Source of the DNA: Candidatus Buchananbacteria bacterium
GTDB lineage: Bacteria; Patescibacteriota; Patescibacteriia; 2-01-FULL-39-33
Direction: 5' to 3'
NCBI GenBank assembly: GCA_903888345.1
Contig: CAISTG010000033.1
Coordinates: forward strand, 1 to 32,141
Length of the DNA stretch: 32,141 nucleotides
A model generated the notes under the pieces. The model searched no databases, was not told where the DNA came from, and was given only the letters and a program-made list of their open reading frames with translations. How positions within the stretch are numbered: the stretch's first letter is position 1; the number at the start of each line of letters is the position of its first letter. The position numbers and the translations under genes are program-made. Below are positions 2,955 to 14,231 of this stretch, piece by piece.

Positions 2955-3338
2955 TTATGCAACAATAGTTATCCACAGTTTTTTTGGTAATTTTATTTTT
3001 ACATATGAAACGAATTCTTCTTCGTTATGAAAATATATTTTTTCTGTTTCTCCTTCGTTATATTGCGGGCAGTTTTTCTGATCATAGTCACGACAAATCT
3101 TTGGACGATCTTGATAATGTGCACATAATTTATTTTTTAATTTGCGGCAAGGAGTTTTAAATTCTAAATACCATTTATTATCATGGCCAATATAGACGCC
3201 GATATTTTGATGTAATAAAAACCAATGAATGTTTTCTACTTCATCTTTTGTGGTTGGTTTATCAATTTCGGTTGCGATGTAACGGCAACAAGCATCGCAT
3301 TTCTGGCAGAGATCTTTATTAACGTGGTCTGACTTCAT
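2955..3338 (-). CDS. YkgJ-family cysteine cluster protein
   Basis: CQKCDACCRY...CRKLKNKLCAHYQDRPKICRDYDQKNCP pattern. Confidence 0.75.
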   Translation of the reverse strand: MKSDHVNKDLCQKCDACCRYIATEIDKPTTKDEVENIHWFLLHQNIGVYIGHDNKWYLEFKTPCRKLKNKLCAHYQDRPKICRDYDQKNCPQYNEGETEKIYFHNEEEFVSYVKIKLPKKLWITIVA

Positions 3339-3351
3339 ATTTTGTGTAATT

Positions 3352-3372
3352 AAAAAACCGCCTAATTTGGCG
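3352..3372 (-). terminator. Weak intrinsic terminator downstream of tRNA-Val
   Basis: minus strand CGCC-AAATTA-GGCGG-TTTTTT. Confidence 0.5.
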
Positions 3373-3462
3373 ATTATTGGTGGATGGCTGAATAAAAAAT
3401 AGAAAGATAATGATGGGCCTCCTTAGCCCGCCCGAGCGGACTTTAACCAATGGTATTTATTA

Positions 3463-3539
3463 TGGTGGACGACAGAGGAGTCGAACCTCTGACCTTCTCA
3501 ACGTCAATGAGACGCTCTAACCAACTGAGCTAGTCGTCC
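3463..3539 (-). tRNA. tRNA-Val(GAC), CCA encoded
   Basis: Cloverleaf GGACGAC/GTCGTCC; anticodon arm TCTCA-TTGACGT-TGAGA; discriminator A then CCA. Confidence 0.93.
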
Positions 3540-3663
3540 AGATTGTATTTAAATTATAGCAAATTTAGCCTATTTGTCAATATATTGTCGTGATTAACTT
3601 AATTTTTTCCAAAAATATGCCAAACTGCTATAATGTGATTACTTAAGAATTAACTATTATAAT

Positions 3664-4443
3664 ATGTCGCAGGAGTCAATAAACGTAAGTCAGTCGGGAA
3701 AGTTATTGGGTGAGCAGGTAAGTCGCGCGGTAGTGCTTAAAGATGAGTTATGTGAGATTATTGAAAGCAATCGTGAATTAGCTGAAGCTTTTGCTGTTTT
3801 GCGACGAGGTTATCCTGATTTAGAACTTAATCTGCAATCATCCGGACCGGAATTTCGAGCTGCTGCAAGTATTATTACTGATAAAATTGTTGCTGCTGCC
3901 ATAAATAATCTATCGAAGACATCAAAAGTTACCGTTGTTTTGCCTTGGCGGAGCGCGTTAGCCTTCGCTGGGAGTTTTAAGAAGCTAAGCATTAATAATT
4001 TCTATCATTTGAGCTCCAAACGTGACGAGTTGACGCTGGAGACGATGGTTGATTTCGAATACGGTAAAATTGAGGCTGGCGACACGGTTTTTATTGCTGA
4101 CCCGATGATTGGAACCGGCAACACGATTATCGACGCCATCGAACGGTTAGTCAGTCAAGAAGTTAAGGTTGAAAATGTCATTGTTGTCGCGGTTGTCGTA
4201 GCGCCACTAGGCATCTCGCGAATCAAAAAAGCTTATCCCGCCATAAAAATAATCGTCGGCTCACTTGATGACGGCTTAGACGATCAAGGCTACATCTACC
4301 CAGGCCTGGGAGATTTTGGAGATAAATATTTTGCCAAATTTTCAACTCAGGAGTTAACTGAATTGGTTGATTTACTTGAATTAGATGAAGTAACTGAAAA
4401 GAGACTACGCGAGCGAATGAGTAAGCAGGCGGAGAGTGTTTAA
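3664..4443 (+). CDS. upp: Uracil phosphoribosyltransferase family protein
   Basis: PRPP loop DPMIGTGNTIIDAI and C-terminal GYIYPGLGDFGDKYF. Confidence 0.85.
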   Translation: MSQESINVSQSGKLLGEQVSRAVVLKDELCEIIESNRELAEAFAVLRRGYPDLELNLQSSGPEFRAAASIITDKIVAAAINNLSKTSKVTVVLPWRSALAFAGSFKKLSINNFYHLSSKRDELTLETMVDFEYGKIEAGDTVFIADPMIGTGNTIIDAIERLVSQEVKVENVIVVAVVVAPLGISRIKKAYPAIKIIVGSLDDGLDDQGYIYPGLGDFGDKYFAKFSTQELTELVDLLELDEVTEKRLRERMSKQAESV

Positions 4444-4461
4444 TATCGCTAGCAGGCGATT

Positions 4462-4499
4462 TGGCAAATAAGCGTATACTCGCGTGTTAATGGTAGGCC
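4462..4499. repeat. att-like site A (38-bp direct repeat)
   Basis: tggcaaataagcgtatactcgcgtgttaatggtaggcc identical to 12504-12541. Confidence 0.95.
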
Positions 4500-4958
4500 C
4501 ACGGGGTTTAGACTGGAACACTATAGAAAACATGATTATAAACTGGAAAGCGGTTATTGGGCGGATCAATCCAGCCTGCTTGCAGGTGGCAATCTAGTCG
4601 TTTATTGGGTTTTTAAGCACGCTGGGCTAGAATAGTCATTCATTTATTATTAACCATAAGGGTATGGAATATAGATGATTATTGTTGCCCGAGCCATAAA
4701 TGAACAGTGGTGCGACTATTATACTACCATTATTAGCTTTATTCAAGCATTACTACATAACCATTACATTAGAATATTCTTTGTTTTATGGCTTAAACGG
4801 CATTTATCGTCTCCTAACAAGATAACTTATTACATAAGAATCATCAACAGAATTTGACTGTTTTATGCCCTGATTAGGTCCTAGCCACTTCAACAGGGTT
4901 AACACGGCGCCACGGGGCTCTAATGGGCAATTCAACCGTCAAAATAGTTACTAAATGA

Positions 4959-6092
4959 TCACTTGCTAGCATCCCATAATTCCTCAAAAAACCTCAGGTA
5001 AGCGTCAGCGATGTGTTGATTTCTAATTTGAATAATCGTCGGCTCATCTTGGAAAATTTGAGTTATGACGGTATCTCCAAAAACATTATAGTTAGCTGGG
5101 TTCTGTATATTTCGTGGCATATTGCGAAATTGGTTCAATTTTGGATAGTCTTTAACTAATCGTTTATCTATTTTACTTTGAGTATACGAGACAATTTTCC
5201 AAACAATGTGCCGCTTAATTCTTATTTTTTCATAAAACTTATAAAATTCTCCCATCAACGAATACCAGGCATCGCCCACGCCACCTGCCACATAAATTAT
5301 AGAATTATCGGGCAATCTTTTCATTAGACCCATATGGTAGGCCTGAAACTGCTCAGTTCCCTTAAATACCTCAATCAATTCATCGCGTTTTGCAATATCA
5401 AGTATAAATGACTTTATTTCTCGATTGGTCTGTGCTGTAAAAAATGTCGCAGTTTTTTCATCTTGAATTAATTCGCCATTTTTTAAAAATAAAATTCTAT
5501 CAGCAACTGACATAGCAAACGACATATGATGAGTGACAATCACCATCGCATAACCATCCTTAGCCAAAGCCCGAATTAAATCTAATACGCCTTTAGTAAG
5601 CTCGGGGTCAAGTGCCGAAGTGATCTCGTCTAACAGTAATACCTCTGGCTTCATCATGACGGCTCGCAATAAAGCAATTCTTTGTCGCTGTCCACCAGAC
5701 AAATGAGATGGATAATTGTCAGCAAAATCATTTAACTCAAAACGATTCAATAAAAATTTAGCACGTTCTAAAATTGATGATTTTGATTCTTTTAAATTTA
5801 AATTGGGAGCTAGAATTAAATTTTCTAATACGGTTAAATGAGGCCATAAAGTATAATCTTGTGGGACATAGCTAGCCAATTTTCCATCCTCCAGCCGAAT
5901 TAATCCACTATCCATTATTTCTAGCCCTGCTAAAGCTCGTAATAAAGTACTTTTACCAGATCCACTAGCGCCTAAAACACAAATAACTTCCCCGCGATTG
6001 ACGGTGACGGTTATATTATTGATGCCTCGAAATTCATCATCACTAGGATATTTTTTTGTAATATTTTGTGCCTTAAGCATAATCTGTGACAT
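4959..6092 (-). CDS. Polar amino-acid ABC transporter ATP-binding protein with ~130-aa TrmB-sensor-like C-terminal extension
   Basis: Walker A GASGSGKST, LSGGQRQRIALLRA, LLLDEITSALD; C-terminal GDTVITQIFQDEPTIIQIRNQHIADAYLRFFEELWDASK resembles the end of TrmB regulators. Confidence 0.85.
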   Translation of the reverse strand: MSQIMLKAQNITKKYPSDDEFRGINNITVTVNRGEVICVLGASGSGKSTLLRALAGLEIMDSGLIRLEDGKLASYVPQDYTLWPHLTVLENLILAPNLNLKESKSSILERAKFLLNRFELNDFADNYPSHLSGGQRQRIALLRAVMMKPEVLLLDEITSALDPELTKGVLDLIRALAKDGYAMVIVTHHMSFAMSVADRILFLKNGELIQDEKTATFFTAQTNREIKSFILDIAKRDELIEVFKGTEQFQAYHMGLMKRLPDNSIIYVAGGVGDAWYSLMGEFYKFYEKIRIKRHIVWKIVSYTQSKIDKRLVKDYPKLNQFRNMPRNIQNPANYNVFGDTVITQIFQDEPTIIQIRNQHIADAYLRFFEELWDASK

Positions 6093-6741
6093 ACTTTTTC
6101 TGCATCCATGAAATAAATAAATGGAGGGGTGCTAAAATAATTAAGAAAAATACAACTATCAACGAATAAATTTCAACTGGTTTATAGATCATTGCATTAA
6201 TAGTTTGGGCGACGCGGAATAGCTCAGGAACTGATATTAGGCTGGCCAACAAAGTATATTCTAGCATAGCCGCTTGTATTAATAATATTTGAGGCAAAGC
6301 ACGACGTACTAATAATGGTAATTCAATACGATTAATAATTTGATTAGAGGACATGCCTAAAGTAATGCCTGACTCGCGATATGATTTTGGCAACAACTTA
6401 AGTTCCGAGCTTATAATCGCAGCGGTAGCGATTAAATTGACTGCTCCTAAAGCCAAAATAGTAGTCCAGAAAGGATTGATTACTACTCCTAATAAACTTT
6501 GCAATGGATAATGCAACCAGAATAGCAACACAAGTACAGGAATAACTTTAGTGATAAAACGTCCACTATTTATGATAATGGTTAAGCCAGGACTGTATCT
6601 GCCACCCAAAATACCCAAAAGGGTTCCAAACGGAACCCCAATGATGATGATACATCCCAACAGCTTTAAGGTGGTCAAAAAGCCCTGAAATAACAAATAA
6701 TGATATTGAATCAATACCTGAAACATAATAATTACGATCAA
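6073..6741 (-). CDS. Amino-acid ABC transporter permease (HisM/GlnP type)
   Basis: Multi-TM; permease EAA-loop-like region RESGITLGMSSNQIINRIELPLLVRRALPQILL; overlaps the ATPase start. Confidence 0.85.
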   Translation of the reverse strand: MIVIIMFQVLIQYHYLLFQGFLTTLKLLGCIIIIGVPFGTLLGILGGRYSPGLTIIINSGRFITKVIPVLVLLFWLHYPLQSLLGVVINPFWTTILALGAVNLIATAAIISSELKLLPKSYRESGITLGMSSNQIINRIELPLLVRRALPQILLIQAAMLEYTLLASLISVPELFRVAQTINAMIYKPVEIYSLIVVFFLIILAPLHLFISWMQKKYVTDYA

Positions 6742-6744
6742 TGA

Positions 6745-7605
6745 TTATTTATTTATTGAATAATCAGTGGCAACTCCATATTTTTGCAATATACGGTAAA
6801 TTGATCCATCATTAATCATTTCATTTAGTGGAACATTCCACATATTGACCATTGAGTCTTCTCCTCGTGCAAAAGCAAAATCTAATCCATATTTGCGTAC
6901 GGGAGTATTGCCAACTTGTTGAATTTTGCCAGGATTAGATTTTAGAAAATCATTTGCCGCAGACGGTTCAGCAAATTCTACATCACCTTTTTTATTAACG
7001 ATGTTAAGAAAGACTTCAGCATAAGATGCGGTCTGTGGTAAAGTATTTAATTTAGCATTTGGGTAATCTTCTGCCGCAATAAATGTAGATAATTCTCCAT
7101 CAACAGCACTAATAGTGACATCACTGGAGTTTATTTTGCTCAGGTCATTGTTGAAACGATTATCACCGGCTCGTACATATGGATAAAGTACGCTATTCAT
7201 CGGTCCGATTGAAAATACAGCCTCACGCGCCCGAGCAGAACTAGGCCACATCTGAGTTCCTAATAAATCGTAGCGCTTGGTTTTCAGACCCTCAAGAGCC
7301 GATCCCCAACCAACCTCTTCAGTCCAGTTGGTTTTAATATTTAACCTTTTTGCAGCTTCTTCAATAATATCATAAGATACGCCCGATAATTTACCGGTAG
7401 TCTGGTCTTTTGACAATAATGGTGGGTATACAATATAACCAATACGAATTTCTCCGTTATTAATAACCTTATCAGCTACGGATTGCGCTTTGTTTTGACC
7501 AGAAGGAGTAGCCAGCTTAACAGTAATCAAACTGACAATCACTACTAATGCTATTATGCCAGCAACACCAAGCCATTTAACCGATACATTGTTTTGTTGT
7601 TTCAT
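6745..7605 (-). CDS. ABC transporter substrate-binding protein (SBP_bac_3 type), N-terminal TM anchor
   Basis: N-terminal TM, GEIRIGYIVYPPLLSKDQTTGKLSGVSYDIIEEAAKRL, order matches importer operon. Confidence 0.85.
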   Translation of the reverse strand: MKQQNNVSVKWLGVAGIIALVVIVSLITVKLATPSGQNKAQSVADKVINNGEIRIGYIVYPPLLSKDQTTGKLSGVSYDIIEEAAKRLNIKTNWTEEVGWGSALEGLKTKRYDLLGTQMWPSSARAREAVFSIGPMNSVLYPYVRAGDNRFNNDLSKINSSDVTISAVDGELSTFIAAEDYPNAKLNTLPQTASYAEVFLNIVNKKGDVEFAEPSAANDFLKSNPGKIQQVGNTPVRKYGLDFAFARGEDSMVNMWNVPLNEMINDGSIYRILQKYGVATDYSINK

Positions 7606-7647
7606 AATTATTAGTTATTTATTTTTTTTATTATAACACAATTTAAA

Positions 7648-7839
7648 CTATAAAGAAAGAGCCAGCTTCAAACATTGAGTGCAGTACGGTTGACTGGGTT
7701 TTGGCAAATGAGGGTATTGTTTGTAAAGTCGGTGTTTCAAAAATAGTTGATCGCAATTGAAGCATTTCCAGACATTTGCATTTTGTCGCGGGATAAAGGG
7801 TTTCAAATAGTAGACACGGTGATTTGTATTATTAGGCAT
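7648..7839 (-). CDS. Small zinc-finger-like protein
   Basis: WKCFNCDQLF...PYCTQCLKL, CxxC x2. Confidence 0.5.
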   Translation of the reverse strand: MPNNTNHRVYYLKPFIPRQNANVWKCFNCDQLFLKHRLYKQYPHLPKPSQPYCTQCLKLALSL

Positions 7840-7861
7840 AGGAGCTGTGGTTAATAATAAG

Positions 7862-7890
7862 AAGCCGAGAGATCGCTGGTCTCCCGGCTT
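7862..7890. terminator. Hairpin, probable terminator
   Basis: agccgagaga-tcgctgg-tctcccggct followed by ttcttgttt. Confidence 0.5.
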
Positions 7891-7900
7891 TCTTGTTTAG

Positions 7901-8266
7901 TTAAATATTTCTAACAAACCTACAATTAGGATAGTTTGAGCATCCCAAGAAACTACTGCCCGACTTGCCATGACGCTCTTTTAGTTGACTTCCGCATTTT
8001 GGGCAATTATTAGCTGAACCAAAAATGGCGGCAGAGTTACTGGAAGCTATAGTGGTTGGAGAGGACTTAGCACTATCGGCATGTGAGTTGCCTGATAATT
8101 CACCATTAAGTTGCGATTTGAGTTCGTTGTATAATTTGATGGCTTCAACAGTACCCTCGGTTCTAACATTAACGAGCGTGCTTTTCTCGATTACGTCTCC
8201 GTTAGCATTTCTTCTTATGTTGTAACTGATTTGAATTGGATTGTAGGTATTTTCGTTAATCGTCAT
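7901..8266 (-). CDS. Protein with C-terminal topoisomerase-type zinc ribbon
   Basis: CPKCGSQLKERHGKSGSSFLGCSNYPNCRFVRNI. Confidence 0.75.
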   Translation of the reverse strand: MTINENTYNPIQISYNIRRNANGDVIEKSTLVNVRTEGTVEAIKLYNELKSQLNGELSGNSHADSAKSSPTTIASSNSAAIFGSANNCPKCGSQLKERHGKSGSSFLGCSNYPNCRFVRNI

Positions 8267-8523
8267 ATAGCTACCTCCCCATTAACAGCGCCATACACTC
8301 TGGGCTGTTCATTAATTCCTTGGCACTTATAACAGAGTACTGACAGCGGATCATAGCCAAAGAATCTCAAGTTATATGTGCTGATTCTACCGCCACAGCG
8401 AATGCACTTCATAATTGGTGCGGGCGTTCTGGACCAGTTGTTATTAAGTAAGTCCGACAATACGCTCTCAGTGAGAATTTCTTTGTTTCTCAGCTGATGC
8501 CTGTTTAGTTTTTGCTTGAACAT
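8263..8523 (-). CDS. Small zinc-ribbon protein
   Basis: MKCIRCGGRI...LCYKCQGI; 4-bp overlap with 7901-8266 start (translational coupling). Confidence 0.6.
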   Translation of the reverse strand: MFKQKLNRHQLRNKEILTESVLSDLLNNNWSRTPAPIMKCIRCGGRISTYNLRFFGYDPLSVLCYKCQGINEQPRVYGAVNGEVAI

Positions 8524-8532
8524 AGATTTGAG

Positions 8533-8832
8533 TTAATTAATTTTTTCGCATTGATAGGGTAAGAAAAATAAATGGCAAGTCCTAGGTATTTTTCTTAATT
8601 GACCATTGGGTTCATTTTTCTCAATAAACACAATTGATTTGAGCGACCTTTCTCCTTTTTTTACTTTGTACCCACGCTTAGTCGCTTCTCTAAAGGTAAG
8701 GGCGTTTGAAGCTGGGTCGTACTGCGCTGCTGCCTCAGACCCAAAGCGATCCTTAATCTGACATCGAACCATCTCTGCCGTGCGTTGACTGCCTGACCAA
8801 TTTGTAGCCAGGACTTCACTTACACTTTCCAT
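8533..8832 (-). CDS. ArdC N-terminal-domain-like protein
   Basis: NALTFREATKRGYKVKKGERSLKSIVFIEK resembles ArdC-N core; good SD aaaggag. Confidence 0.55.
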   Translation of the reverse strand: MESVSEVLATNWSGSQRTAEMVRCQIKDRFGSEAAAQYDPASNALTFREATKRGYKVKKGERSLKSIVFIEKNEPNGQLRKIPRTCHLFFLPYQCEKIN

Positions 8833-8853
8833 AGACTTGCTCCTTTCTTAACC

Positions 8854-8879
8854 AAAAAAACCACCAGAGTTATTGGCGG
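8854..8879 (-). terminator. Putative attenuator hairpin in the leader of the 8832->7901 operon
   Basis: minus strand CCGCC-AATAACTCT-GGTGG-TTTTTTT just upstream of the SD; no minus-strand gene upstream. Confidence 0.5.
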
Positions 8880-9114
8880 AATTATTGGAATATTATTAGT
8901 AAATGACCTTAGAATTTAAGATCAAAAATACAGTGGTATGGGAAATCTTTAGTTTGGTTGGGTGGGAGTTGTTTGAATTGGGTCCCCAGCGGTGGCTGGG
9001 TTCCATGAGGTAACCATTCCATCTGCTTCCGGAAGACTTTTTAAAAAATTTTGCACATTTTTTTTATGACTTATGGTAAAATAAAATCAACAGAGTAACT
9101 AAAACTATAATAAA

Positions 9115-9609
9115 ATGCTAAAAATTGAACAATGTAGAAAGTTAAATATCAGTTCGCTTGATACTAATGACGGCTGCTCCCATATAGCTGAGGCAGAGTG
9201 CGATGGCCAGAAGTTTCCCGTGGCTTATGCTTTTGATCTTAATGATGATTCTAGGGTGGTTAATATTTCTTTCCAGTCCAACAACAAAATACAAAAGCAA
9301 ACCATAGCAATAGAAATGGTAGAGTTGCCGCTGGGAGATAAAGCGTATTTTGGGTGTGATTGCGGCAAGAGGTGCTCAATATTATACCAGAAGCCAGATG
9401 GAGGAGTATTTGCTTGTCGTGAGTGCCATAAGCTGGTGTATGAAGTTAAAACAATCAACAAGAATCTTATGGGCGGAGTACTGTACAAGATGAACAGACT
9501 AGAGTGCTTATTGCAGAAAAGGAAGAAAATCAACCATATTTTTTATGACGGGAAACCGACCAAAAAAGTGGCGCAATTCATCCATCTTCGCGAGAAATGG
9601 TGTGTCTAA
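9115..9609 (+). CDS. Zinc-ribbon hypothetical protein of mobile-element type
   Basis: CDCGKRCSILYQKPDGGVFACRECHKLVYE motif. Confidence 0.6.
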   Translation: MLKIEQCRKLNISSLDTNDGCSHIAEAECDGQKFPVAYAFDLNDDSRVVNISFQSNNKIQKQTIAIEMVELPLGDKAYFGCDCGKRCSILYQKPDGGVFACRECHKLVYEVKTINKNLMGGVLYKMNRLECLLQKRKKINHIFYDGKPTKKVAQFIHLREKWCV

Positions 9610-9616
9610 AACAAAT

Positions 9617-9760
9617 TTAAGGTATAAGTACAAAAAAAAGGAAAATAATAATCAATACAATATTTACTAAAATTCTTAAATAATGCCAATAAATAAGGCC
9701 TTGATCACTATTTTTAGATATTCCGACCAATAACCACTTGTTTTTTGGGGCTGAATTCAT
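9617..9760 (-). CDS. Small membrane protein (47 aa), hypothetical
   Basis: Internal ATG at 9760 preceded by tataat; hydrophobic C-terminus. Confidence 0.3.
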   Translation of the reverse strand: MNSAPKNKWLLVGISKNSDQGLIYWHYLRILVNIVLIIIFLFFVLIP

Positions 9761-9893
9761 TTTTACTCGTGCTATAATCAAATTATATGAAACGGTTATG
9801 ACAGCCAACTGTCCGAAGAAATCGGCTAATAAGCTAAATTCTTCGTACAACCTAGAGCTCTAGTAGTCAAGGTTTAACAACAAGACTACCACA

Positions 9894-10020
9894 AACTATT
9901 GTTCCAATAACAATAGCCATTACAAAAAGTAATGGTGGATTTTTTATTGGACGATAACCTCAACTTATTAATCAAATCGTTCAAAGAACGGTCAGATTAG
10001 CCTAATTACACTAGGCTATC
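9894..10020. other. Hairpin-rich intergenic segment
   Basis: ctattgtt-ccaat-aacaatag; ccattac-aaaaa-gtaatgg + T-run; tagccta-attacac-taggcta. Confidence 0.65.
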
Positions 10021-10051
10021 TTAAATTCGCCCTTATCGGCGTAAAAAAGAT

Positions 10052-10459
10052 ATGAAATTATCTCCAATCCAAGCTATTAGGCTTAAATGCATTGAATGCA
10101 AAGCAGATGAAGTAGCAGAAGTCAGAAACTGCGATTTTTATGATTGCGTTTGTTGGCCATATCGCCTGGGAAAGAACCCCGCCAGAAAGGGCGTGGGAGG
10201 CAACCCAAATCTCAAGATGAGTGATAGTACCAAAAAAGGTACATCTAAGCCTAACTACCCCTCTGAGTTGGCAAAAAATGACCAAAACACCCCTTCTAGA
10301 ACGAAGATCCTCACACCTTTAAACACCATTAGAAAGGAATGTTTGGATTGTATGCGAGGTCACCGAGATATGATAAGGGATTGCTCTGAGGGCTGTGCCT
10401 TACATCCCTTCCGCTTTGGTGAAAATTCAAAGCCAAATGAAGTCGATAAAACTCAATAA
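10052..10459 (+). CDS. Tandem-duplicated Cys-motif protein (CxxC...C...C...P[YF]R[LF]G[KE]N)
   Basis: Two copies: IRLKCIECKADEVAEVRNCDFYDCVCWPYRLGKNP and IRKECLDCMRGHRDMIRDCSEGCALHPFRFGENS. Confidence 0.6.
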   Translation: MKLSPIQAIRLKCIECKADEVAEVRNCDFYDCVCWPYRLGKNPARKGVGGNPNLKMSDSTKKGTSKPNYPSELAKNDQNTPSRTKILTPLNTIRKECLDCMRGHRDMIRDCSEGCALHPFRFGENSKPNEVDKTQ

Positions 10460-10490
10460 GCAACCACTCAAATGATTTGAAGCCACGGTC

Positions 10491-10658
10491 ATGAACAATC
10501 CGATATCGCAAGGCATATCGTTTGAAGAATTCAAAAAAGCCCTCGGAGAGACCGCGGACAAATATTCTGACGCTCAAATTGATGAGTTATGGCGTTTATG
10601 TGACCATTTGGCAGACATTGTTTTCACTGACTGGCTTAATAAGGTTAATACGGTATAA
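10491..10658 (+). CDS. 55-aa small protein upstream of the recombinase (MNNPISQGISFEEFKKALGETADKYSDAQIDELWRLCDHLADIVFTDWLNKVNTV)
   Basis: Manual translation; not in the ORF track (<60 aa); position directly before the recombinase. Confidence 0.65.
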   Translation: MNNPISQGISFEEFKKALGETADKYSDAQIDELWRLCDHLADIVFTDWLNKVNTV

Positions 10659-10693
10659 TGTGTAGTAAAGACATTAAAATATAGTTTCTAAAT

Positions 10694-12406
10694 ATGAAAA
10701 CAGAACCAGCCAAAAAAATCATCAACTGCGTCGTACAGTGTCGAGTCAGCTCCCTCAAACAATCGCATGAGGGCGAGAGTTTAGAAACTCAAGAAAAGGA
10801 TTTGCGCCGGCTGGCCGCGGCTAGAGGGTGGAATATTGTACCTAATGATATAGTTTGGAGTACTGCCATATCTGGTAGAAAAACCGATCGTGATGACTTT
10901 ATGGAAATTATCGCCTATATAAAAAGTCACCCTGGATTCGTCGACAATTATGTTTTCAAGTCAATTGATCGTGCCACACGAGCAGGAACCGGTGAGTACA
11001 CCAGTATGAAAAATGAACTTTCTAAGTATGGCGTGCAGATGGTTGATTACAACGGCGTTATTCAGAAATCAATAAATACTCTTGAAAATTATGGCCTGGA
11101 ATATCCCTGGAGCATCTACTCACCTAGTGAGATAACTGAAGGCGTGTTGGCGACAACTGCCAAACAAGAAGTTACCACTATTCTAACCAGGCTGATAGGC
11201 CAAGAAATAAACCTAACTAACCAGGGGTATCACGCAAGGCGTCCGGCTGAGGGCTATCTCAATAGCAGGATTTATGTTGATGGAAAAAAGAAAACGATTC
11301 AAATTCCAGATCCTGAGCGAGCAAAATTTTACATTTCTATGTTTGAATTGCGCGCTCAAGGTCTTAAAGATAAAGAGATAGTCGACCGAGTAAATGCGAT
11401 GGGGTATCGTTCGCTGGCTCAAAATAAATGGAACAAGGAGCACTCAAAAATAATCGGCCAGATGGGTGGCAAACCATTATCTATCAAACAACTGCAACGG
11501 CATATTAAGAATACTATCTATGCCGGGGTTATCTGCGAGAAATGGACTCGCTTCAAACCAATTAAAGTCCAGTACGATGGTCTTGTTAATATTGATCTAT
11601 GGAACCAAGCTAATCGTGGTGGCGCAAATCTTAGAGAAAATCTTGACGGAAGCATTGAGTTTGTGGCAATCGCAACAAGTAAGACGGGCGAATTTAGAAA
11701 CAGAAATAATCCACTATTCCCGTTTAAGTTCGTTCTCTGTCCGAAATGCCACCAGCCATTTTGCGGTAGTGAACCGCGAAATAGAGTTGGTAACAAAATT
11801 CCATACTACCATTGTTCGCGCGGCCATAAATATTTTGGCATTCCAAAAAATACTTTTGATAACAATGTAAAACAATATATCAGCAATCTAAAATTTAATC
11901 CCGATATTCTAAACGCGCTTGAAGCAACCTTCATGGCGAAGTACCGTCAGCGAGAAGCGGAGATCGTGCAAGCTTCTGGAAATATCCATCATAATATTGC
12001 TGAATTAGAAATAGAACAGAAAACAAAACTAGAAGCACTAGCTCTTTCCAAAAGCGTAGTCGTGCGCGAGAAATTTGAACAGGAGATTGACGCGCTAGAA
12101 GTCAGGATAATAGAAGCCGGTCGGCAATGCGACATAATCAAAATAAGCCGTGATGATATCAAGGCTTTTATGAGGGAAGCAAAATTAATAATGGAACACC
12201 CAGCAGAAACCCTATTAAATCAAGGGGATATGCGTGTTCAGCGCGAACTTTTTGGGCTTGTTTTTGAAGAGTTGCCTAACTATGAGGAAATAGTTAATGG
12301 AACACCCAAATTGTCGCTAATTTTCAATCTTTCTTCGGCTTTTACAACCAATGAAAGACAACTGGTAGGCCTGGATGGAATTGAACCATTCGTCACTCTA
12401 CGTTAA
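10694..12406 (+). CDS. Large serine recombinase (resolvase + recombinase + zinc beta-ribbon domains)
   Basis: CRVSSLKQSHEGESLETQ, FKSIDRATR, zinc ribbon CPKCHQPFCG...YYHCSRGH, coiled coil; C-terminus encoded in the att core. Confidence 0.9.
   Translation: MKTEPAKKIINCVVQCRVSSLKQSHEGESLETQEKDLRRLAAARGWNIVPNDIVWSTAISGRKTDRDDFMEIIAYIKSHPGFVDNYVFKSIDRATRAGTGEYTSMKNELSKYGVQMVDYNGVIQKSINTLENYGLEYPWSIYSPSEITEGVLATTAKQEVTTILTRLIGQEINLTNQGYHARRPAEGYLNSRIYVDGKKKTIQIPDPERAKFYISMFELRAQGLKDKEIVDRVNAMGYRSLAQNKWNKEHSKIIGQMGGKPLSIKQLQRHIKNTIYAGVICEKWTRFKPIKVQYDGLVNIDLWNQANRGGANLRENLDGSIEFVAIATSKTGEFRNRNNPLFPFKFVLCPKCHQPFCGSEPRNRVGNKIPYYHCSRGHKYFGIPKNTFDNNVKQYISNLKFNPDILNALEATFMAKYRQREAEIVQASGNIHHNIAELEIEQKTKLEALALSKSVVVREKFEQEIDALEVRIIEAGRQCDIIKISRDDIKAFMREAKLIMEHPAETLLNQGDMRVQRELFGLVFEELPNYEEIVNGTPKLSLIFNLSSAFTTNERQLVGLDGIEPFVTLR
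12363..12389. repeat. att-like site B (27 bp of tRNA-Ile 3' end)
   Basis: tggtaggcctggatggaattgaaccat identical to 12533-12559. Confidence 0.95.
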
Positions 12407-12503
12407 TGTAGTCCGTAGCCGTTAGGCGGAGGATAATAGTTGAGTGCCGGCGGAGGCCGGCTCCAGAACATATTGCCAGCCTGGAGTCCGGTTCATCCGG
12501 ACC

Positions 12504-12541
12504 TGGCAAATAAGCGTATACTCGCGTGTTAATGGTAGGCC
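12504..12541. repeat. att-like site C (38-bp direct repeat, running into the intact tRNA)
   Basis: Identical to 4462-4499. Confidence 0.95.
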
Positions 12542-12608
12542 TGGATGGAATTGAACCATCGACATCTACGTTATAAGCGTAGCGCTCTAACCCCTGAGCT
12601 ACAGGCCC
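12533..12608 (-). tRNA. tRNA-Ile(UAU), CCA encoded
   Basis: GGGCCTG/CAGGCCT acceptor; anticodon arm CTACG-CTTATAA-CGTAG (34-36 = TAT); T arm GATGG-TTCAATT-CCATC. Confidence 0.85.
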
Positions 12609-12659
12609 TTAATCTAGCTATATTTTAATAGAATTCGCCATAAAAATCAAGTTAACCAC

Positions 12660-12688
12660 TTGACTTTTTTGCTTATTTAAGTTACAAT
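12660..12688 (+). promoter_or_regulatory. Promoter TTGACT-N17-TACAAT for cca
   Basis: ttgact 12660-12665, tacaat 12683-12688. Confidence 0.65.
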
Positions 12689-12722
12689 TTAGTTTCATAT
12701 CAAGTTGTGCTACAATTAAAAT

Positions 12723-14231
12723 ATGGAGAAAAATGAGCAAAAATTGATTAATTGGCAGAAGCAGATCAAAGATTTGCCTGAGTTTGTGTTTATTGCGAAA
12801 TTATTTGAGCAATTTCCTCAATCGGAGGTGTATTTAGTTGGTGGTGCTGTTAGGGATATTATCTTAGAACGTCAAACTAAAGACTACGATTTTGTGGTGA
12901 AGTGTGTTCTAGCCAAAGAGCTAGAAGATTTTTTCTCTAAATTAGGAGAAGTTAATCTGGTCGGAAAAAGTTTTGGCGTCTTTAAGTTTGTTCCGACTGG
13001 CTTTCATATCGGCGATAATCTAACTGAAGCCTTTGATATTGCCTTACCACGGACGGAAGTTGCCGGCATGAGTGGCGGTTATAAGGATTTCGAAGTTCAA
13101 AGCGACGCTAACTTAAATATTGAAGCTGACTTATCGCGCCGCGATTTTACCATTAATGCCTTGGCGTGGAATTTAAAAGAGCAAAAAATCGTTGATGAAT
13201 TTTCTGGTTTACAAGATTTAGAAAATAAAATTATTAAAGCGATTGGTGATCCGGCGCAAAGATTTCAAGAAGATTATACTCGAATGTTACGTGCGATCAG
13301 ATTTTCTTGCCAGTTAAATTTTACCATTGAAGCTAAAACTTTCGCCGAAATTAAAACTAAAGCGAAAAAAATTAAAACGATTGCACCGGAGAGAATTAAT
13401 GAAGAGTTTACTAAAGTGATTATGTCGACGCGAGCGGAAGAGGGGATTAGAATGATGCAGGAAATTGGATTGCTAACTGAACTTATTCCGGAATTAGCGA
13501 GTAGCTCAGGCGTGACACAGAATCGCCATCATATCTATGATGTTTATGAGCACAGTGTCCGCGCATTAGGAGCGGGAGCACAACGTGATTACAAATTAGA
13601 AGTTCGTTTAGCTGCTATGTTGCACGATATCGGCAAACCGCAAACCAAAGAGGGGGAAGGCGAAGAATCAACTTTCTATAATCACGACATTGTTGGTGCG
13701 AAGATCGCCAAGAAAATTCTTAAACGCTTAAGTTATTCTAATGATGTTATAGATTATACTGTCCACTTAGTCCGTTATCATATGTTCTATTATGCTTTAG
13801 ACATTGTTTCTGATTCAGGAGTGAGAAGATTGCTGTCGCGGATTGGTAAGGATAATATTGATGACTTTATTAACTTGAGAATCTGTGATCGCTTAGGTAT
13901 GGGCCGGCCTAAAGCCAAGCCGTGGAAATTGATGGAATTAGAACGCAGATTTAAAGAAGTTCAGTTAGATCCGATTACGCCGAAAATGATTGCGCTCAAA
14001 GGCGATGAATTGATGCAGTTACTGAAGATTACCCCAGGACCACGAGTTGGCTTAATTCTTAACGCGCTCTTGGGAGAAATTCTAGAAGATCCAAAGAAGA
14101 ATGATCATGACTACTTAGTAACTCGAGCGCAAGAAATTAATAAGTTGAGTGATGCAGAGTTAAAACAATTAAATCCCGATGTAAAGTTTTACGAAGAAGA
14201 ACGCAAACGGGAATTACATCAAGAAAAGTAA
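12723..14231 (+). CDS. cca: CCA tRNA nucleotidyltransferase / poly(A) polymerase with HD domain
   Basis: YLVGGAVRDIILERQTKDYDFVV, RRDFTINALAWN, HD motif MLHDIGKPQT. Confidence 0.9.
   Translation: MEKNEQKLINWQKQIKDLPEFVFIAKLFEQFPQSEVYLVGGAVRDIILERQTKDYDFVVKCVLAKELEDFFSKLGEVNLVGKSFGVFKFVPTGFHIGDNLTEAFDIALPRTEVAGMSGGYKDFEVQSDANLNIEADLSRRDFTINALAWNLKEQKIVDEFSGLQDLENKIIKAIGDPAQRFQEDYTRMLRAIRFSCQLNFTIEAKTFAEIKTKAKKIKTIAPERINEEFTKVIMSTRAEEGIRMMQEIGLLTELIPELASSSGVTQNRHHIYDVYEHSVRALGAGAQRDYKLEVRLAAMLHDIGKPQTKEGEGEESTFYNHDIVGAKIAKKILKRLSYSNDVIDYTVHLVRYHMFYYALDIVSDSGVRRLLSRIGKDNIDDFINLRICDRLGMGRPKAKPWKLMELERRFKEVQLDPITPKMIALKGDELMQLLKITPGPRVGLILNALLGEILEDPKKNDHDYLVTRAQEINKLSDAELKQLNPDVKFYEEERKRELHQEK

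Follow-up and report, generated by a model that had tools for sequence, protein, structure and literature searches.

The window, that is, the whole stretch of 32,141 nucleotides analysed here, contains a group of genes placed between upp (3664-4443), which follows tRNA-Val at 3463-3539, and a tRNA-Ile(UAU) gene (Table 1). The group is bounded by two att-type sites, A and B, and a third such site, C, overlaps the tRNA gene. An earlier note on this DNA had claimed a serine-recombinase element between A and B, and our analysis supports that claim: core to core, the element measures 7872 bp (4491 to 12362) and encodes a single large serine recombinase at its right end. Its cargo is an ABC transporter, whose solute-binding protein is missing from seven of the nine family relatives. 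Three small element genes recur in the elements of relatives, two of them in G001, a genome of the same genus, and one in G365.

Table 1. Features of the element and its flanks, in window coordinates
Feature	Position	Strand	Remarks
Site A, attL-type	4462-4499		Host arm L (29 bp) and 9-bp core, then element end X; identical to C over 38 bp
Element left end X, non-coding	4500-4958		Resembles nothing in the spacer right of B
ABC transporter, polar amino-acid-type (cargo)	4959-7605	-	Pfam PF00005, PF00528, PF00497
Transporter ATPase	4959-6092	-	
Transporter permease	6073-6741	-	
Transporter solute-binding protein	6745-7605	-	
Topoisomerase-type zinc-ribbon protein	7901-8266	-	PF01396
Element backbone protein, common to G001 element	8533-8832	-	tblastn 41%, 5e-24
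Element backbone protein, common to G001 element	9115-9609	+	tblastn 40%, 5e-39
Cys-rich protein, relative adjoins G365 recombinase	10052-10459	+	tblastn 28%, 1.5e-7
Large serine recombinase, 570 aa	10694-12406	+	Last codons (..LVGLDGIEPFVTLR) inside site B
Site B, attR-type	12363-12420	-	Core and R arm (27 bp as in C), then decayed tRNA-Ile 3' part
Spacer Z	12421-12503		Two GC-rich hairpins; single copy in genome; source not detectable
Site C, unoccupied attB-like	12504-12559		L, core and R
Intact host tRNA-Ile(UAU), CCA encoded	12533-12608	-	ARAGORN; 98.6% identical to G001 orthologue

Three att-type sites around a 9-bp core

The repeats and coordinates reported in the earlier note proved exact. 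Site A is identical to 12504-12541 in site C at 38 of 38 positions, and the first part of site B (12363-12389) is identical to C at 27 of 27, while the only sequence common to A and B is a 9-bp core, TGGTAGGCC. By chance, an exact repeat somewhere in 32 kb is expected about 7e-15 times at a length of 38 bp and 3e-8 times at 27 bp. Since a fourth copy of the 9-mer lies at 5335, within the transporter gene, the core by itself carries no evidential weight, and the evidence resides in the L and R arms; across the whole assembly (1.39 Mb, 66 contigs), the only matches to the att region are sites A, B and C. The half-site logic proposed earlier, in which A is L-core-X, B is Y-core-R and C is L-core-R, stands. 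The core is the complement of the last nine nucleotides of tRNA-Ile(UAU), GGCCTACCA, CCA included, and the intact tRNA that had been recognised in C is also called there by ARAGORN, on the minus strand.

The overlap between attL and attR is limited to these 9 bp, as is expected of large-serine-recombinase elements. The arms of serine-integrase att sites are expected to show an imperfect inverted symmetry; the inverted symmetry of the arms here, which we looked at to place the crossover, was not significant (p = 0.77 and 0.94). Of the tRNA-Ile genes inspected, the one described here encodes CCA (12533-12541), and those of the family relatives lack it.

The recombinase, its relatives and the host locus

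The recombinase contains the Resolvase (PF00239, 6e-14) and Recombinase (PF07508, 5e-5) domains, matches the phrog_95 integrase profile (5e-35), and has a zinc ribbon with a CxxC and C..H pattern starting at residue 349. The catalytic residues R17 V18 S19, R62 and D92 R93 R96 are alike in this protein and its G001 homologue. Among 381 genomes of the class, full-length relatives at E<=1e-40 were found only in G001 (39-40% identity) and G365 (46%), and none was found in the genome contig collection, IMG/VR or phage records.

The reading frames of both homologues extend into an intact tRNA-Trp at its 3' end, the tRNA beside each element being whole, and in all three elements the last recombinase residues (..GIEP..) are read from the T-arm antisense in one frame. 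In G016, the same is seen for a distant homologue and tRNA-Glu, and a fragment in G013 adjoins tRNA-Trp. Because the G001 and G365 homologues end in the tRNA-Trp 3' end in the same GIEP frame, B can be taken as the true right junction quite apart from the repeats. A search for the corresponding left junctions in G001 and G365 found none, and the comparison thus confirms the right end only; A is taken as the left end because no other place joins the core to host arm L without the R arm.

The G001 element in tRNA-Trp (L049:5918-19872) also encodes a primase-like protein, and some of its genes look like a type III restriction-modification system. Just upstream of tRNA-Trp, G001 (L049:5268-5921) and G365 (L060:799-1452) have related genes for a 217-aa helix-turn-helix-like protein.

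The tRNA-Ile locus of G001 is free of the element and has a single tRNA-Ile(UAU), with the L sequence at a like offset: its downstream flank contains GGCTAATAAGCGTA at nearly the same offset as GGCAAATAAGCGTA here (13/14, p = 0.0004). Because of this resemblance, we regard L as old host flank, and therefore the L-core-R order of C as the ancestral arrangement. The earlier note had proposed a comparison with element-free sister genomes; none of these carries all three sites, and G001 has one copy. In the family relatives, tRNA-Val(GAC) comes after tRNA-Ile(UAU), mostly near cca, and in none of the nine was an element seen between the two tRNA genes. The gene upp, which flanks A, is missing from eight of these nine and appears to be a lineage-specific gain between tRNA-Val and tRNA-Ile. 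Since the intact tRNA-Ile is nearly identical to its G001 counterpart and lies near cca as in the relatives, it is the host orthologue, and for this reason we rejected rescue of the host by an element-borne tRNA. In window 2955-14231, comparison with G001 shows the segment holding the Val and Ile tRNA genes to be inverted with regard to cca and the zinc-cluster protein gene on its flanks.

A second, partial target and its origin

The earlier note had proposed a tandemly duplicated target. The tRNA-Ile(UAU) target is indeed present twice, but the second is not a whole copy: the duplication is limited to 29 bp of flank and roughly 50 nt at the 3' end of the tRNA. The decayed anticodon arm proposed to follow B does exist: positions 12363-12405 match tRNA nucleotides 36-76 (93%, E 3e-10). 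When A and B are rejoined and compared with C, they agree perfectly over 55-56 bp (29 of L, 9 of core and about 18 of R); beyond these the match continues with several indels as far as roughly the 5' strand of the anticodon stem, where it ends. Serine-integrase attP half-sites are about 25 bp long, and contacts in attB reach to about position 19 (PMC3783163). The perfect block is thus about the size of a serine-integrase footprint, which is what a functional site would preserve, and this suggests that the block may have been kept as a recombination site while the remainder decayed.

Between B and C, neither the 5' half of the tRNA (p = 0.88) nor its upstream flank (p = 0.93) was detectable. 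Spacer Z (83-97 bp) contains no ORF and gave no match; its source was found neither in that upstream flank nor in the upp 3' end (p = 0.14) or the element left end (p = 0.49), and it has no similarity to the G001 spacer (p = 0.44). We also considered its hairpins as a dispersed repeat and rejected this, Z being single-copy in the genome.

A dead or partial tRNA-Ile stands beside a working one in three of ten family genomes, namely G006, G008 and the one described here. In G006 (L054:4181-4311), a tandem second tRNA-Ile(UAU) is interrupted by two GC-rich hairpins, and there is no element. In G008 (L055:3281-3457), an intact tRNA-Ile(UAU) is nested in an older, decayed tRNA-Ile, within the anticodon loop of the latter, and is flanked by a 13-bp inverted repeat, CCCTGTCAAATAT, whose exact sequence is repeated nowhere else in that genome.

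Two origins fit the second target about equally, and we give neither quite an even chance. One is an earlier tRNA-targeting island, probably of the tyrosine-integrase type, which displaced the 3' part of tRNA-Ile and then eroded to about 100 bp, now Z; the serine-recombinase element would afterwards have taken that displaced fragment as its target, and A and B would stay attL and attR. Two successive insertions, which the earlier note had raised, are possible in this one form. The duplicated part begins at about the anticodon stem, takes in the 3' end and continues into the flank, as identity blocks of tRNA islands usually do; moreover, the tRNA 5' half is missing, Z does not match the flanks, and decayed islands with later tandem integration are on record (PMC5704250). 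The CCA in all three cores, missing from the inspected tRNA-Ile genes of relatives, could come from an attP. However, the short Z holds no integrase or gene relic, and for a block of this kind the 29 bp of identity in L past the tRNA is a long stretch.

The other origin, which bears on the second target only, is a partial tandem duplication before insertion, with a 170-bp unit of Z, L, core and tRNA 3' part, the leftmost Z having been lost when upp was gained. The tandem tRNA-Ile of G006, in the same family, offers a precedent in which the flank is also repeated and the hairpins lie in the dead copy, all in the absence of an element, and L as ancestral flank agrees with such an event. Yet the extra copy in G006 is whole and on the other side, and the dissimilarity between Z and the G001 spacer also counts against a duplication.

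The element could also be taken to reach from A as far as C, in which case it would measure 8042 bp, the 38-bp repeat would supply its att sites, and B would be a tRNA fragment in its interior. The A/C repeat is the longest perfect one, but we consider this unlikely, since L is host flank in the sister genome, serine-integrase attP and attB have little sequence in common (PMC3783163), and the relatives put the element end where recombinase and tRNA meet, which is B. It is very improbable that the arrangement is an assembly artefact, one occupied and one unoccupied strain having been joined into a chimera in this fragmented and possibly metagenome-derived assembly: the 66 contigs and repeats close to k-mer length would allow one, but two intact forms would not yield a decayed tRNA and a unique spacer of 83-97 bp, and the assembly holds no other match.

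A proposed integration scheme and its significance

Based on these results, we propose that the locus probably holds a 7872-bp integrative element with its own recombinase, with A as attL and B as attR, which occupied the partial target copy and left C empty. The tRNA-Trp junctions of the homologues, the recurring small genes and the element-free locus in the same genus support this reading of A and B, and the earlier assignment of the three sites as attL, attR and unoccupied attB is upheld. The element's own large serine recombinase would have catalysed its entry, recombining attP with attB at a crossover within the core, the last 9 nt of tRNA-Ile(UAU); an attP of the form Y-core-X would have given attL (L-core-X) at A and attR (Y-core-R) at B. 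The target used would be the partial copy directly downstream of the complete gene, not the working gene itself, and the complete gene would still form an intact attB (C). Excision would take attL x attR recombination and a directionality factor. We infer the recombination event, a continued ability to excise, the mobility of the element and the origin of the partial copy from the sequence.

The earlier note had suggested that the duplication protects the tRNA, and this role finds no support. The tRNA needs no protection, since its last 9 nt, CCA included, are the core, and insertion here leaves it whole. What the arrangement does entail is that an unoccupied attB is still available in the working tRNA.

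The element resembles other large-serine-recombinase elements (phage integrases and Tn4451-type IMEs) in its Resolvase and Recombinase domains, its short common core and its end at the recombinase gene; unlike in those, the target here is a tRNA 3' end, and a second, unoccupied attB-like copy adjoins. The closest described systems are the ssrA islands of Dehalococcoides and SCC (CcrAB). In the former, DsiB, a serine recombinase, directs integration to the T-loop of tmRNA, and its gene contains the repeat (PMC3146451). Like our element, these islands and SCC have a serine recombinase with an att repeat embedded in its gene, and they integrate at the 3' end of a gene, tRNA-like or essential, that stays intact. 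However, they have paired recombinases (DsiA/B, CcrA/B), whereas there is one here, and their target is tmRNA or rlmH, whereas it is tRNA-Ile here and tRNA-Trp in the relatives; for these reasons we do not file the element with them. The long repeats here, in addition, are L and R halves that an empty third site also carries.

CIME accretion and tandem att arrays likewise have three att-type sites, possibly with a decayed segment between two, but here that segment is 83-97 bp without genes and the outer site is attB-like (L-core-R), not attR. In the tRNA-dependent lysogeny of actinobacteriophages, attB also lies in a tRNA, with a core of about 10 bp and an intact tRNA of the same isotype near; that tRNA is supplied by the phage (PMC10865867) and the integrase is a tyrosine integrase, whereas here a serine recombinase is encoded beside a host orthologue. 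Our element would work as large-serine-recombinase integrative elements ordinarily do; what sets it apart is an unusual target and an attB that has been duplicated. It is a variant of known tRNA- and tmRNA-targeting integrative elements, in an arrangement that is uncommon but understandable.

Genes for tRNAs are the classical target of tyrosine integrases, and serine integrases at tRNA 3' ends are far less described. To our knowledge, few integrative elements have been delimited in the Patescibacteria-like group, itself little studied, in which gene content and genome size appear to place this genome. The natural attL, attR, attP and attB for one recombinase can be obtained within a single window, and its activity is thus directly testable. 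The locus further suggests that integration can be targeted to tRNA copies that are dead or partial. As a tentative and rather doubtful extension, the class may harbour a serine-integrase lineage specialised on tRNA 3' ends (Ile, Trp and perhaps Glu), with C-terminal codons supplied by the tRNA and, here, a decayed or partial copy as a spare attB. If this were true, the essential tRNA and its attB would stay free for further insertions.
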